Source: an uncultured Actinomycetes bacterium | GTDB lineage: Bacteria > Actinomycetota > Acidimicrobiia > Acidimicrobiales > Ilumatobacteraceae | Direction: 5' to 3' | DNA length: 64,000 nucleotides | Assembly (NCBI GenBank): GCA_903872155.1 | Contig: CAIQJP010000026.1 | Span: 1 to 64,000, forward strand | Shown: in pieces, positions 11,650 through 64,000 of the stretch | Layout: the number at the start of each line of letters is the position of its first letter | How positions within the stretch are numbered: the first letter of the stretch is position 1 | Position numbers and translations under genes: made by a program | The notes under the pieces: model-generated | Database searches by the model: none | Told to the model about the DNA's origin: nothing | Seen by the model: only the letters and a program-made list of their open reading frames with translations

Positions 11650-12516
11650 GTGAGTCGCACCTATGACACCGTGTCGTTCTTATCTGACTTGGGTTATGAG
11701 TCAGAGCACGTCGGTGTCGTGAAGGCGGTCATTCGTGAATCAGCACCGCAAGTAGTGGTCATTGATCTCACTCACGGCATTGCACCGTTTGATACGCGTG
11801 GTGCTTCGTTGTCGTTAGCACGAGCTGTTCCATATCTCACCGAAGGAATTGTGATTGCCGCAGTTGATCCGGGTGCAAGTAACGAACGTCGACTTGTTGC
11901 GGTAGAAGTTGCCGGTGGTGCCGGAATTTTCATTGGTCCCGATAACGGAGTGTTAGCGCCAGGAGTCGCACTTGCTGGTGGGGCTGAACGGGCAGTTGTG
12001 CTTGATCACGATGAGTTGCACTTAGCAACGCCCGGAACAACTTTTGTTGCGCGCGATGTCTTTGCGCCAATCGCTGCGTTGCTCGCAAATGGTGAAGATC
12101 TCTTTGATGTCGGCACCGAAATTGATCCGTCGTTGTTGTTGCCGGGCATTATTCCGATCCCACGCGAAGAGAATGGTGGCTTCGAGGGTGAAGTGTTGTG
12201 GGTCGATCGCTTTGGCAACTGCCAACTCAATGTGAGTCTTGATGATCTGGAAACTTCTTGGGTCAATCCTGTTGAGCGCGTCCGAGTTTCATTTGGTGAC
12301 ACCACACGTAACTTTGTGGTGGCGCGGTCGTACGCCGAACTGGGCCAGGGTGCTGCCGGGTTAGTCGTTGATTCATCTGGCTTGTTGTGTGTGGCAGTCG
12401 ATAGCGGTTCGGCCGCTGAGCAACTAGGTCTGGGCGAAGGTCAGCAAGTGACATTGCAACCTGGGGGCGACGAACCAGCCATCTCAACCCCAGTTGCGCT
12501 GCGCCCCACTCCATAA
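11650..12516 (+). CDS. SAM hydrolase (SAM hydroxide adenosyltransferase, DUF62)
   Basis: This 288-residue protein belongs to the family that splits S-adenosylmethionine into adenosine and methionine with water. Visible motifs are FLSDLGYESEHVGVVKAVI at the start, VVVIDLTHGIAPFD, VIAAVDPGASN and GIFIGPDNGVLAP. The C-terminal beta-barrel part contains GEVLWVDRFGNCQLNV. It acts in the cytoplasm and may limit SAM or supply adenosine. GTG 11650 follows a CACACT box by seven bases and has no Shine-Dalgarno sequence. Confidence 0.85.
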   Translation: MSRTYDTVSFLSDLGYESEHVGVVKAVIRESAPQVVVIDLTHGIAPFDTRGASLSLARAVPYLTEGIVIAAVDPGASNERRLVAVEVAGGAGIFIGPDNGVLAPGVALAGGAERAVVLDHDELHLATPGTTFVARDVFAPIAALLANGEDLFDVGTEIDPSLLLPGIIPIPREENGGFEGEVLWVDRFGNCQLNVSLDDLETSWVNPVERVRVSFGDTTRNFVVARSYAELGQGAAGLVVDSSGLLCVAVDSGSAAEQLGLGEGQQVTLQPGGDEPAISTPVALRPTP

Positions 12517-12520
12517 TCGC

Positions 12521-12532
12521 TAAGGTGAGGTC
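12521..12532 (+). promoter_or_regulatory. Leaderless-type -10 box for the small membrane peptide
   Basis: TAAGGT at 12521-12526 lies six bases before ATG 12533, matching the pattern of established gene starts in this window. Confidence 0.55.
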
Positions 12533-47161: not shown

Positions 47162-48523
47162 ATGTCCAAACGTTCAATCACACTTCGTAATCCAGCCGAC
47201 GACTCGGTGATACAAGACGTTCCCTTAGCGACGACGCACGATGTTGATCAGGCAGTTATTCGCGCGCAAGCCGCACTGCCAGCGTGGCGCGATATGGCAC
47301 CGAATGATCGCATCAAGATCATGCGGCGCTTCGCAGAAACAATTGCCGCACATGCACAAGAATTAGCCGAACTTGATACGCGCAATATGGGGATGCCCTT
47401 TGGTTCAAGTAAGTGGTGTGCCGACACGGCTGCTGAAGTGATTCATTATTACGCCGGAGCCGTTGACAAGCATCTTGGTCATACGTATCCCGTCGCTGGT
47501 GGCGTCACGATGACATTTCATGAACCGCTAGGTGTCGTTGGTTTGATTGTGCCCTGGAACTTCCCATTGCTCATTGCTTGTTGGAAGCTTGGGCCAGCAT
47601 TGGCGTGCGGCAATACCGTGATTTTGAAACCTGCCGAAACAACACCATTAAGTGCGATGCGACTTAGTGAGTTAGCACTCGAAGCCGGAATTCCTGAAGG
47701 TGTGTTGCAAGTTGTTGTCGGAACTGGACCCGAAGCAGGATGGCGATTAGTTGAACACCCGATGGTGCGCAAAATTGGTTTCACCGGTAGCACTGCTGTG
47801 GGCAAGCGAATTATGGCTGGCGGTTCTGAGCATTTGAAGCGAGTCACTCTTGAACTTGGCGGCAAGAGTGCCAACATCATTTTTGCTGATGCAGATATTG
47901 AAACAGTTGCAGCATCGGCTCCAGGTGCGGTCTTCGACAACAGTGGTCAAGACTGCTGTTCACGTTCACGAATTTTTGTGCAGCGGCCAATCTTTGACGA
48001 GTTTGTCGAATTGATGATTGCCGAAACTCAAAAGATTGTGGTGGGCGATCCGATGGACCCAAAAACAGCAATGGGGCCTTTGTTTACGCGGGCACATCAT
48101 GATCGAGTGTCGTCGTATCTTGAAGGTGTCACACCAACCTGGTCCGGATCGGCACCAACTGGTAATGGTTATTGGTTTCCGTGCACGATCGTCGCTACCG
48201 CAGATATAACAAGCCGAGTATGTACCGAAGAAATCTTTGGCCCAATCGCCACGATCATTCCTTTCACCGATGAGAACGATGTTTTGAGAATGGCTAATGA
48301 CACCGAGTATGGATTATCTGGTTCGGTATGGACCCGAGATGCTGAGCGAGCAATGCGTGTGGCACGTCGACTTGAAGGTGGGACGTTAAGCGTCAATTCG
48401 AATTCGTCGGTGCGATTCTCCACACCATTTGGTGGATTCAAACAAAGTGGAATCGGTCGCGAATTATCAATGACCGCAATGGATCACTACAGCGAACTCA
48501 AAACAATCTTCTGGAAGTCATAA
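47162..48523 (+). CDS. Aldehyde dehydrogenase family protein
   Basis: This 453-residue NAD(P)-dependent dehydrogenase has GLIVPWNFPLLIACWKLGPALACGNTVILKPAETTPL, FTGSTAVGKRI, the catalytic Glu in ELGGKSANIIF and the catalytic Cys in NSGQDCCSRSRIFV. FGGFKQSGIGRE is near the end. It is somewhat short for the family (usual about 480-500). ATG 47162 is set by the TAGAGT box; the longer open frame overlaps the upstream gene. The substrate is not certain. Confidence 0.88.
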   Translation: MSKRSITLRNPADDSVIQDVPLATTHDVDQAVIRAQAALPAWRDMAPNDRIKIMRRFAETIAAHAQELAELDTRNMGMPFGSSKWCADTAAEVIHYYAGAVDKHLGHTYPVAGGVTMTFHEPLGVVGLIVPWNFPLLIACWKLGPALACGNTVILKPAETTPLSAMRLSELALEAGIPEGVLQVVVGTGPEAGWRLVEHPMVRKIGFTGSTAVGKRIMAGGSEHLKRVTLELGGKSANIIFADADIETVAASAPGAVFDNSGQDCCSRSRIFVQRPIFDEFVELMIAETQKIVVGDPMDPKTAMGPLFTRAHHDRVSSYLEGVTPTWSGSAPTGNGYWFPCTIVATADITSRVCTEEIFGPIATIIPFTDENDVLRMANDTEYGLSGSVWTRDAERAMRVARRLEGGTLSVNSNSSVRFSTPFGGFKQSGIGRELSMTAMDHYSELKTIFWKS

Positions 48524-48528
48524 TCCAT

Positions 48529-48585
48529 TGTGATTCTGGTGAGGATTATTACTCAAAATGAGTAAAAATCCTCACCAGAATCACA
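48529..48585. repeat. Dispersed hairpin repeat, complete copy
   Basis: Two 27-bp arms (48529-48555 and 48559-48585) form an inverted repeat with one mismatch and a three-base loop. The left arm begins TGTGATTCTGGTGAGGATT. It starts six bases after the aldehyde dehydrogenase stop and its right arm covers the stop codon of the convergent ilvA gene. The same arm sequence recurs at 63967. It could act as a bidirectional terminator or as a mobile palindromic repeat. Confidence 0.85.
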
Positions 48586-49783
48586 GCGCGGTGATGTCGT
48601 AGCCGGCGTTACGAACAGTGTCGATTAACAATTCGGCATGATCGGGACCACGAACTTCAAGAACTGCGTTAACCCCTGTTTCACGCACATGTAAATCAAC
48701 ACCATCGCGTACGTGATCAATGTCAATCACACTCGCGCCAACTTCGGCAAAAATCGTCAGCAACTTGGCGAGTCCACCTGGACGATCGCTCACTTTGACG
48801 AACACGATGAGCCGTCGGCCAGCTTGAGTTTCAAAACGACGAATGAGTCCAGGCACAACACCAAGATCCACGTTTCCACCCGACAAAACAACACAAGTAG
48901 TACCACTGCGCGATGGCGCTGCACGTTCGCTCAATAAAGCCGATACGCCAACTGCACCACCACCTTCGACATATAACTTTGATCGCTCCATTAACAACAC
49001 CATCGCATCGGCCACTGCATCTTCGTCAACGACAACAATGTCATCGAGCCATTTTTCGATGAGTGGTCGCGTGATCTCGCCAGGTTTCTTGACCGCAATA
49101 CCATCAGCCAAGGTGAATACCGGACCAGTTGGGGGAGTGCTGTTCGCATAAGGTGCGCACGCTTCAACTTGAACACCAATCACTTTGATCGTTGGATCAT
49201 GTTGTTTGACTGCGATAGCAACACCACTTGCAAGTCCGCCGCCACCTAAGGGCACTAGCACGCGACGCAAGTTAGGAATATCAACGATGAGTTCGAGCCC
49301 GAGAGTTGCTTGACCAGCTACGACAACTGCATCGTCGTAGGGATGACAAAACTGCATTCCTTTTTCGGTGGCGCGGGCGCGCGCTGCGGCAACCGCTTCA
49401 TCTAATGAATCGCCACCTTCAACGACTGTTGCTCCATAAGCACGACATGCCGCGATCTTGGCAATGGGTGCATTTTTTGGAACGAAGATTTCGCATGGCA
49501 CTCCAAAAGTGCGCGCCGCGAATGCCAAAGCTTGGGCATGGTTGCCAGCGCTTCCGGCGGTGACTCCGGTTTTTGCTAACTCGCCCAGCGAAGAGAGCTT
49601 GCTCATCGCACCACGGATTTTGAAACTTCCGGTGCGTTGCATGTTTTCGGCCTTGAGCACAATGTCGCCTCCGGTCCGATCGCTCAGCGCGGCCGATGCC
49701 GTGACGGGGGTGTGCTTGACGACCCCCGCGCCAGCGGCGTGGGCACGAGCGATATCGGCAGCAGAAATCTCAATGGCGGGCAT
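48581..49783 (-). CDS. ilvA: Threonine ammonia-lyase with ACT domain
   Basis: This 400-residue PLP enzyme deaminates threonine (or serine). The PLP lysine lies in MQRTGSFKIRGAMSKL, SAGNHAQALAFAA binds the substrate and PLGGGGLASGVA binds the phosphate. The C-terminal 75 residues (LIVFVKVSDRPGGLAKLLTIFAEVGASVIDI) form one ACT domain, as in short TdcB-like enzymes with regulation. ATG 49783 gives the family-like start PAIEISAADI; a TATGGT box lies nine bases upstream. Its final codons lie inside the hairpin repeat. Confidence 0.88.
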   Translation of the reverse strand: MPAIEISAADIARAHAAGAGVVKHTPVTASAALSDRTGGDIVLKAENMQRTGSFKIRGAMSKLSSLGELAKTGVTAGSAGNHAQALAFAARTFGVPCEIFVPKNAPIAKIAACRAYGATVVEGGDSLDEAVAAARARATEKGMQFCHPYDDAVVVAGQATLGLELIVDIPNLRRVLVPLGGGGLASGVAIAVKQHDPTIKVIGVQVEACAPYANSTPPTGPVFTLADGIAVKKPGEITRPLIEKWLDDIVVVDEDAVADAMVLLMERSKLYVEGGGAVGVSALLSERAAPSRSGTTCVVLSGGNVDLGVVPGLIRRFETQAGRRLIVFVKVSDRPGGLAKLLTIFAEVGASVIDIDHVRDGVDLHVRETGVNAVLEVRGPDHAELLIDTVRNAGYDITAL

Positions 49784-62300: not shown

Positions 62301-63211
62301 TCACCGTTGAGGGTTTAACCAAGAAGTATGGATCGACAACCGCAGTTGACTCGTTGTCATTCACTGTCACTCCAGGTCGAGTCACCGGATTCCTCGGGCC
62401 TAATGGATCGGGCAAGAGTACGTCAATGCGCTGCATGATCGGACTTGATCGCGTGCAGTCGGGGACCACTCTTTTTGATGGTCAACCGTATGAAAAATTG
62501 AAACAACCGTTGCATGAAGTTGGGGCTTTGCTTGACGCAGGAAATGCCCACGCTGGACGTACGGCGCGTAACCATTTACGTTGGCTGGCGATGAGCAATG
62601 GCATCTCAACCAAGCGTGTTGATGAAGTTCTTGAACTAGTGGGTTTGACTGACGTCGCCAAAAAGCGTGTGGGTCAGTTCTCGCTGGGTATGAAACAACG
62701 ACTCGGTATTGCATCAGTCATGTTGGGGGATCCGAAAGTTGTCATCTTGGACGAACCAGCGAACGGACTCGACCCTGAAGGTATTCGTTGGATTCGCGAG
62801 ATGCTCAAGCATTTGGCCTCGCAAGGTCGTTCGGTGTTGGTGAGTAGTCACCTACTTTCTGAGATGGCGCTCATGGCCGATGATCTCGTTGTGATCGGTA
62901 AGGGTCGCTTGATTACTGAATGCACCGTTCCAGAATTTGTCGATCGGTATACAAAGAAATGGGTAGTGGTGAAAAGTCCACAACTCGGAGTTTTAGTTTC
63001 ATTAGCTCAAACTGCCGGAATGCATGTATCAATCGGCTCAGATACTGCCGAGTTTCATGGCATAGCTGCGGCAGCGATTGGTGAACTTGCTGCACAAAAC
63101 AACATTGTTTTGCATGAACTGGCTACACAAACCGGATCCCTTGAAGACGCCTTCTTAGAAGTCACCGCAGACTCTGTCGAATATCACAGTCATTCGGAGG
63201 TGAAGTCATGA
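62297..63211 (+). CDS. ABC transporter ATP-binding protein
   Basis: This 304-residue ATPase has Walker A GPNGSGKST (about 36-44), a Q-loop region, the signature FSLGMKQRLGIA and Walker B VVILDEPANGLDPEG. The C-terminal 80 residues form an accessory domain typical of ABC-2 type exporters. The GTG start overlaps the methyltransferase stop, and the permease gene overlaps its own stop. The exported substrate is unknown. Confidence 0.9.
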   Translation: MITVEGLTKKYGSTTAVDSLSFTVTPGRVTGFLGPNGSGKSTSMRCMIGLDRVQSGTTLFDGQPYEKLKQPLHEVGALLDAGNAHAGRTARNHLRWLAMSNGISTKRVDEVLELVGLTDVAKKRVGQFSLGMKQRLGIASVMLGDPKVVILDEPANGLDPEGIRWIREMLKHLASQGRSVLVSSHLLSEMALMADDLVVIGKGRLITECTVPEFVDRYTKKWVVVKSPQLGVLVSLAQTAGMHVSIGSDTAEFHGIAAAAIGELAAQNNIVLHELATQTGSLEDAFLEVTADSVEYHSHSEVKS

Positions 63212-63957
63212 TGTCTATCGTTCGAAGTGAATGGCTGAAATTGCGAACCGTCCGTTCGAATGTCACACTGGCGATTGTTGCCATCCTGTTGCCGCTTGCG
63301 ATTACTTTATTAACCGCGGTCTTTATCAAAATACGTGATGTTGACGATTCAACGATTCCGGCAGTGTTGCTTGGTAGTGGAACAATGAGTGTTCTGCTTA
63401 TGGGCGTTGTAGGTGTTTTGGTAATTACTCAGGAATATTCACAGGGCACTATTCGTTTGACATTTGCGGCAACGCCACATCGTTCTCGTGTTTATATGGC
63501 AAAGATCATTCTCTTATTTGCCGTGTCAATTGTTGTCACCTCGATTGTGCAAGTCGTCGGAAGTTTCGGCGGGAAAGCAATCTTGAATTCCCGCGGGTTT
63601 CATGGAGCAGTCTTTAACGATCAAACAACCGTGGCATTCATTGCAATGACAATCGTCGGAGTGCTTGTTTCGTTTCTTGGCCTAGCAATCGGAACTTTCA
63701 CTCGCAACCCACCTTTTGCGATCACCACTTTGGTGCTTTGGCCATTGTTGATTGAAGGAATCGTTGGCGGGTTGTTGTCACTCATATTTGGTGAACATAT
63801 GCGCACCTGGTTGCCATTTTCGGCGGGATTAGGTTCGATGCAAATACGTGATCACTTTTTGCATCTTGGACGTTGGGGTTCGGTCGGATACTTCGGTGCA
63901 TGGGTTGTCGGAATTTCACTGATCGCTCACACAGTTCTGCGACGTCGCGACGCCTAA
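63208..63957 (+). CDS. ABC-2 type permease
   Basis: This 249-residue protein has six hydrophobic segments with the ABC-2 pattern: MSIVRSEWLKLRTVRSNVTLAIVAILLPLAITLL at the start, VLVITQEYSQGTIRLTFAATPHRSRVYMAKI and LGLAIGTFTRNPPFAITTLVLWPLL. It forms an exporter with the ATPase before it. ATG 63208 overlaps the ATPase stop; the second ATG at 63211 is equally possible. Confidence 0.86.
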   Translation: MMSIVRSEWLKLRTVRSNVTLAIVAILLPLAITLLTAVFIKIRDVDDSTIPAVLLGSGTMSVLLMGVVGVLVITQEYSQGTIRLTFAATPHRSRVYMAKIILLFAVSIVVTSIVQVVGSFGGKAILNSRGFHGAVFNDQTTVAFIAMTIVGVLVSFLGLAIGTFTRNPPFAITTLVLWPLLIEGIVGGLLSLIFGEHMRTWLPFSAGLGSMQIRDHFLHLGRWGSVGYFGAWVVGISLIAHTVLRRRDA

Positions 63958-63966
63958 ACATTCCCC

Positions 63967-64000
63967 TGTGATTCTGGTGAGGATTTTTACTCAATATGAG
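63967..64000. repeat. Dispersed hairpin repeat, copy cut by window end
   Basis: The left arm TGTGATTCTGGTGAGGATTT (continuing to TTTACTCA at 63993), a three-base loop and the first four bases of the right arm are present. The arm equals the left arm of the copy at 48529 except for one base. It starts ten bases after the permease stop. The window ends inside it. Confidence 0.8.

Follow-up and report, generated by a model that had tools for sequence, protein, structure and literature searches.

The window analysed here, 64,000 nucleotides of contig C26 from the draft genome G000 (2.81 Mb), carries at 48529-48585 a hairpin that fills the space between two convergent genes, one for an aldehyde dehydrogenase on the forward strand and an ilvA-like one on the reverse strand. 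The features of the window that bear on this element are the following:

12506-12530, no strand: hairpin-free site; the hairpin is present in the sister genome G004, with flanks 96-99% identical
47162-48523, + strand: aldehyde dehydrogenase gene, convergent with the ilvA-like gene; its stop is 5 nt short of the hairpin
48529-48585, no strand: solo 57-bp palindrome with an A-type core (AGGATT...) and the tips TGTGATTCTGGTG and CACCAGAATCACA
48581-49783, - strand: ilvA-like threonine dehydratase (PALP and ACT, Pfam); the hairpin tip makes its TGA stop
63208-63957, + strand: ABC-2 transporter gene; its stop is 9 nt ahead of the second hairpin
63967-64000, no strand: second solo palindrome, again with an A-type core; the window ends within it, and it is whole on contig C26 (G000:C26:63967-64023)

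The arms of the hairpin (48529-48555 and 48559-48585) measure 27 nt each, with 26 of 27 positions paired around a loop of 3 nt, and its fold reaches -43.5 kcal/mol (z of -11.7 versus shuffles), in agreement with the original prediction of an inverted repeat with one mismatch and a three-base loop between two convergent genes. That prediction also included the last codons of ilvA in the element, a slight overstatement, as the overlap consists of the TGA stop and two bases of the last codon. The second copy that it reported at 63967 is real, but “nearly identical” was too strong, the two sharing 51 of 57 bases (89%) and 32 of the 34 visible in the window. No Rfam family was found between 46000 and 64000.

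Both hairpins belong to a dispersed repeat family, as had been proposed, comprising about 38 copies rather than two and lying outside duplicated blocks. Searching the whole genome for TTCTGGTG...CACCAGAA with 10-40 bases in between returned 32 palindromes, a number above chance because every one of them spans 47 bp although spans of 26-56 were allowed, and because the reversed tip pattern gave no match in the same search. A relaxed scan covering 634 kb of G000 around element sites, with 1.2 Mb of the sister genome G004 used for comparison, gave 39 matches, of which 38 were retained as elements and one (L172, within a gene and with nine pairs) was dropped as chance. The 38 elements have a fixed length and near-invariant outer bases or tips (TTCTGGTG/CACCAGAA), while their inner 13 pairs differ, with up to four pair types, and remain complementary. 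Pairing holds in 86% of inner-stem cells, compared with 74% after shuffling and no more than 49% with the arms slid, and two-sided (compensatory) changes in the stem stand at 117 versus 52; related copies may beat shuffles without selection, and the weight of these figures rests on the slid control and on the effect size. The tips are symmetric (TGTGATTCTGGTG), the 38 aligned copies lacking a fixed GTAG or CGTC head at one end. One hairpin (L188:10014-10070) is a chimera with one arm of T/W type and the other of C type, and a similar chimera occupies the orthologous site of G017 (L110).

Placement of the palindromes relative to genes

Further copies next to gene ends, anticipated by the original prediction for a repeat family, are the rule in G000: in 32 of 38 cases a gene ends no more than 25 nt away, and in 16 this is so on both sides. 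The elements lie 3-7 nt past stop codons or provide the stop codon themselves, the palindrome tip being the stop in 11 cases. Gaps of up to 600 bp hold 17 elements between convergent, 14 between tandem and 1 between divergent genes, where available length predicts 2.1 convergent and 12.6 divergent; genes were called by a simple codon-usage script and individual placements may be wrong. Convergent gaps lacking an element, to which most convergent gaps belong, are typically about 11 bp long and hairpin-free. Insertion 3' of genes would be harmless, and copies would survive there for that reason.

The element had alternatively been viewed as a copied bidirectional terminator, a suggestion that finds no support, since a T-rich stretch (at least 5 T in the 8 nt after the stem) follows only 2 of 76 hairpin edges and the palindromes are therefore not canonical intrinsic terminators.

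Nuclease genes bracketed by palindromes

Two loci of G000 (L159:7155/8178 and L187:2855/3881), which, like the interspecies core swaps described below, the original prediction could not see, hold a gene of ~305 aa bracketed by the family's own palindrome, and two further nuclease genes of this genome (on C87 and C33) are bracketed by other palindromes. In the first two of these palindrome-gene-palindrome units the palindromes are spaced by about 1.02 kb. The bracketed protein of G000 matches DUF559 (E 3e-9) and, weakly, AbiEi_4; among 25 homologs, DUF559 was detected in 24, MTES_1575 in 21 and AbiEi_4 in 14. Compared with solved structures, the nuclease domain matches 3hrl (E 2e-11) and 3r3p (“mobile intron protein”, E 5e-5), which we take to be I-Bth0305I, and residues E205, D232 and E243 are invariant. 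Judged from its sequence, the protein is a fusion of an AbiEi-type winged helix, predicted to bind DNA, with a Vsr/DUF559-type PD-(D/E)XK nuclease. The dN/dS of its orthologs, 0.02-0.08, denotes strong purifying selection.

The N-terminal region recalls the AbiE type IV toxin-antitoxin systems, PADLOC models of the antitoxin AbiEi matching it in all 25 proteins, but the C-terminal nuclease domain and the bracketing palindromes set these genes apart from AbiE. No AbiEii nucleotidyltransferase was apparent by eye among the predicted neighbour genes of the two own-genome units. On the same contig, some 3.4 kb past the end of the window, L163:10418-11221 encodes an AbiEi-like winged helix and, after it in frame, a nucleotidyltransferase-like region; it matches the nuclease profile weakly, lacks DUF559 and has no palindromes on its sides.

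Bracketing was assessed as a shared word of at least 12 bp between the 200 bp before a gene and the 130 bp after it. Matched repeats were found on both sides of all 16 distinct homologs of the genus and of 10 of the 27 from elsewhere in the phylum, the other 17 of these 27 having no repeat by this simple shared-word test; the total of 26/43 compares with 0/229 control genes, taken from G000 only (P 3e-25). Separate nuclease lineages within the genus are associated with separate palindrome pairs (TTCTGGTG, CTGGGT, GCGACAAWTTGTCGC, GCCACTCTGTAC, CACCCTGATGCG, GATCTGGTC and others), of which one palindrome lies ~30-110 nt ahead of the start and the other ~0-30 nt past the stop. Species share the nuclease at one syntenic locus (L232/L233/L241/L246, L234 and L247) and differ there in both bracketing palindromes.

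Solo copies follow the same pairing. A cores make up 20 of 38 in G000, the only genome in which the A-type nuclease was found, versus 3 of 107 in the seven sisters combined (P 2e-11), and C cores 9 of 12 in G021, where the C-type nuclease was found, versus 15 of 133 elsewhere (P 3e-6); both P values overstate independence, given the kinship of the genomes and the incompleteness of several. For the unrelated GCGACAA family, the four genomes that hold its nuclease, and only these, reach about 10-12 copies; a fifth has a few degenerate ones and the remainder essentially none. A third family (GCCACTCTGTAC) backs the cognate pairing weakly: G009 has four copies, of which two bracket the gene, and G017 has one. 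Palindromes are present and the nuclease undetected in G016, G017 and G006, assemblies that are 62-80% complete. The association of nuclease and palindrome is well supported; that of core type with nuclease type is correlative, in a set of phylogenetically related genomes.

This organization resembles that of REP/RAYT systems (REPtrons), in which palindromes lie by 3' ends, mostly in convergent or unidirectional gaps, with repeat ends supplying stop codons, and in which two cognate repeats, drifting yet remaining palindromic, flank the enzyme gene (PMC2817692, PMC3733652). The hairpins described here are likewise extragenic and near 3' ends, with tips serving as stops and an enzyme gene between cognate palindromes, so that the “REP/MITE-like” label of the original prediction was apt for anatomy and placement. 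It was not apt for identity, as the enzyme is an AbiEi-DUF559 nuclease instead of a HUH/Y1 tyrosine transposase, and the linked REP-associated transposase (Y1_Tnp, PF01797) that would have accompanied a REP family was found in 0 of 24 genus genomes, with positive controls detected. Moreover, the repeats measure 57 bp versus 20-40, lack the fixed GTAG/CGTC head and have whole 31-bp cores swapped at fixed sites. A true REP/RAYT system, for which the anatomy, the placement and the stop codons provided by repeat ends could otherwise have argued (PMC3733652, PMC2817692), has next to no probability, and we treat this identity as ruled out by the negative PF01797 search.

Core replacement and alternation of units with solo copies

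Comparison of G000 with G004 revealed 18 solo sites filled in both genomes, nine with the same core type and nine swapped. At the swapped sites the whole 31-bp core is replaced between conserved tips, in flanks mostly 90-99% identical (80-85% at L165); at L170:10539, for instance, flanks of 99% and 95% identity enclose a core AGGATTATTCTTC... in one genome versus TCATTTCATTTGG... in the other. Of nine A-type sites of G000 with a partner in G004, eight have T or C cores there, and the ilvA site itself has an A core in G000, a T core in G004, G016 and G009 and a C core in G021. Two palindrome families (ATCTGGTC and TTCTGGTG) lie ~170 bp apart at L165:10552 and L165:10720 (G000 C46), and the same pair occurs at this place in G004 (C8:39486 and 39661).

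Palindromes recombine easily, and core swaps could in principle result from routine gene conversion within the genome or from repair by template switching, with nuclease genes caught between two copies by accident, an explanation consistent with the existence of chimeric hairpins with two arm types (L188:10014-10070). We consider it highly improbable: bracketing of 26/43 versus 0/229 is far beyond chance, and the palindrome sequence follows the nuclease lineage in several unrelated families.

Occupied sites also alternate between unit and solo copy. Where G021 holds a unit (L223), G016, G000 and G006 have solo hairpins with C, A and T cores, respectively, and a unit site of G000 (L220) corresponds to a solo T in G006 and to nothing in the pond MAG locus L070; at both sites some genomes hold the unit and others a solo copy, comparable to the occupied and unoccupied alleles of a homing endonuclease element. 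Neither a target-site duplication nor a clean insertion junction was found in six filled/empty comparisons, and some of the “empty” sites, which have TGATT-like remnants, may be deletions. In G004, ~364 bp of extra sequence lie beside the hairpin orthologous to L178:4395 (G004 C1:7158), and at L186:4069/L064 ~1.7 kb between the hairpin and its right flank are missing from G000.

These comparisons bear on a conventional MITE or IS family, in which an as yet unfound transposase would act in trans on a DNA transposon with the palindromes as its terminal repeats. The hairpins share with MITEs their short, dispersed, non-autonomous, inverted-repeat nature, and the bracketed gene looks like an autonomous element, with presence/absence differences among species. 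However, this gene encodes a DUF559/AbiEi nuclease and not a transposase, the flanking duplications expected for such a family are missing from the six filled/empty pairs, cores are exchanged at fixed sites between tips that stay conserved, and each unit end is a complete hairpin. We hold this explanation to be improbable, marginally less so than accidental conversion.

The likeliest of the alternatives, though unlikely in our opinion, is that the palindromes are host elements of 3' ends or of the chromosome (terminators, mRNA 3' stabilisers, gyrase sites or sites for nucleoid proteins), kept similar to one another by the AbiEi-DUF559 protein, which would be a resident factor binding or processing them. 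The 3' placement (17 convergent, 14 tandem and 1 divergent, with 32/38 within 25 nt of a gene end), the compensatory stem changes and the strong purifying selection on the protein are in its favour. Yet the hairpins have no U tract, most convergent gaps (~11 bp) are hairpin-free, the family is missing from several congeners, and wholesale core swaps and unit/solo alternation would not be expected of a stable host signal.

A candidate nuclease-based selfish system

We propose, with a probability of roughly 60%, that a nuclease-based selfish system underlies the family and that the hairpin at 48529-48585 is one of the solo copies of its cognate repeat. In the model that we infer for palindrome binding, cutting, the repair route and the direction of conversion, the autonomous unit would be palindrome - ~305-aa gene - palindrome, with about 1.03 kb from one palindrome centre to the other, and a nuclease dimer would read the ~57-bp palindrome via its conserved tips and cut palindromes with a non-cognate core. 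The copy bracketing the nuclease gene, or another cognate solo, would serve as repair template, with the tips as homology, and repair would convert the core or install the whole unit; recombination between the bracketing palindromes would later excise the gene, leaving a solo with a new core. A precedent is offered by the EDxHD (Vsr-like) homing endonucleases, among them I-Bth0305I, to which the match with 3r3p (E 5e-5) relates the nuclease domain. I-Bth0305I has been described as a dimer whose target approaches 60 bp (PMC3943268), a length close to that of the 57-bp palindrome, and this reported target, together with the nuclease domain, suggests a dimer on the palindrome and cleavage-driven conversion of cores. 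Unlike these endonucleases, the gene described here is not intron-borne, its DNA-binding part is AbiEi-like, and two complete palindromes bracket it in place of a single interrupted target. The T-type unit, found at one site in four species and under strong purifying selection, is more like a resident gene than an aggressive mover.

Taken together, these findings suggest a REP-like selfish system not previously described, with a wide distribution in Actinomycetota and a nuclease that is now labelled an antitoxin; in the open-access literature we found no description of palindrome-bracketed DUF559 genes. Somewhat short of an even chance, in our estimation, is the broader proposition that such elements, selfish or domesticated, form a phylum-wide class and that their Vsr-like nuclease, fused to an AbiEi domain, polices dispersed palindromes, overwriting foreign cores. 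Such policing would in effect be a gene drive on 57-bp hairpins, and many type IV antitoxin and DUF559 annotations would belong to the system. REP-like dispersed palindromes would then have arisen a second time, with a nuclease replacing the HUH transposase, and a multi-copy family now scored as antitoxin or defence gene would gain a function. The old question of why palindromic repeats spread, by what means, and how they remain palindromic would become testable, because cores would record the last-acting nuclease and conversions would be readable in close genomes.

Matches to the nuclease family occur in 153 of 296 sampled Actinomycetota genomes; none was found in phage records, and plasmids gave two distant DUF559 matches only. 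The palindrome has a narrower distribution: with exact tips it was found in 9 of 24 genus genomes and in 0 of 17 genomes outside the genus, and with relaxed tips in 17 of the 24, several congeners lacking the family. Relaxed-tip copies span 46-48 bp among the matches listed and have very different cores. Two exact-pattern matches only were obtained in viral contigs and taken as chance, and the database records with the palindrome are freshwater actinobacterial MAGs, plus isolated, chance-like matches in unrelated taxa. Several MAG records entitled “Bifidobacterium breve” (CAMDCI, CAMDER and CALPPJ; L058, L063, L066, L084 and others) match the genus of the window, and their titles are apparently wrong. 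At the ilvA stop of another genome (L197, G020), TTGTGATTTTGGTGGCA looks like a decayed palindrome half left after rearrangement.
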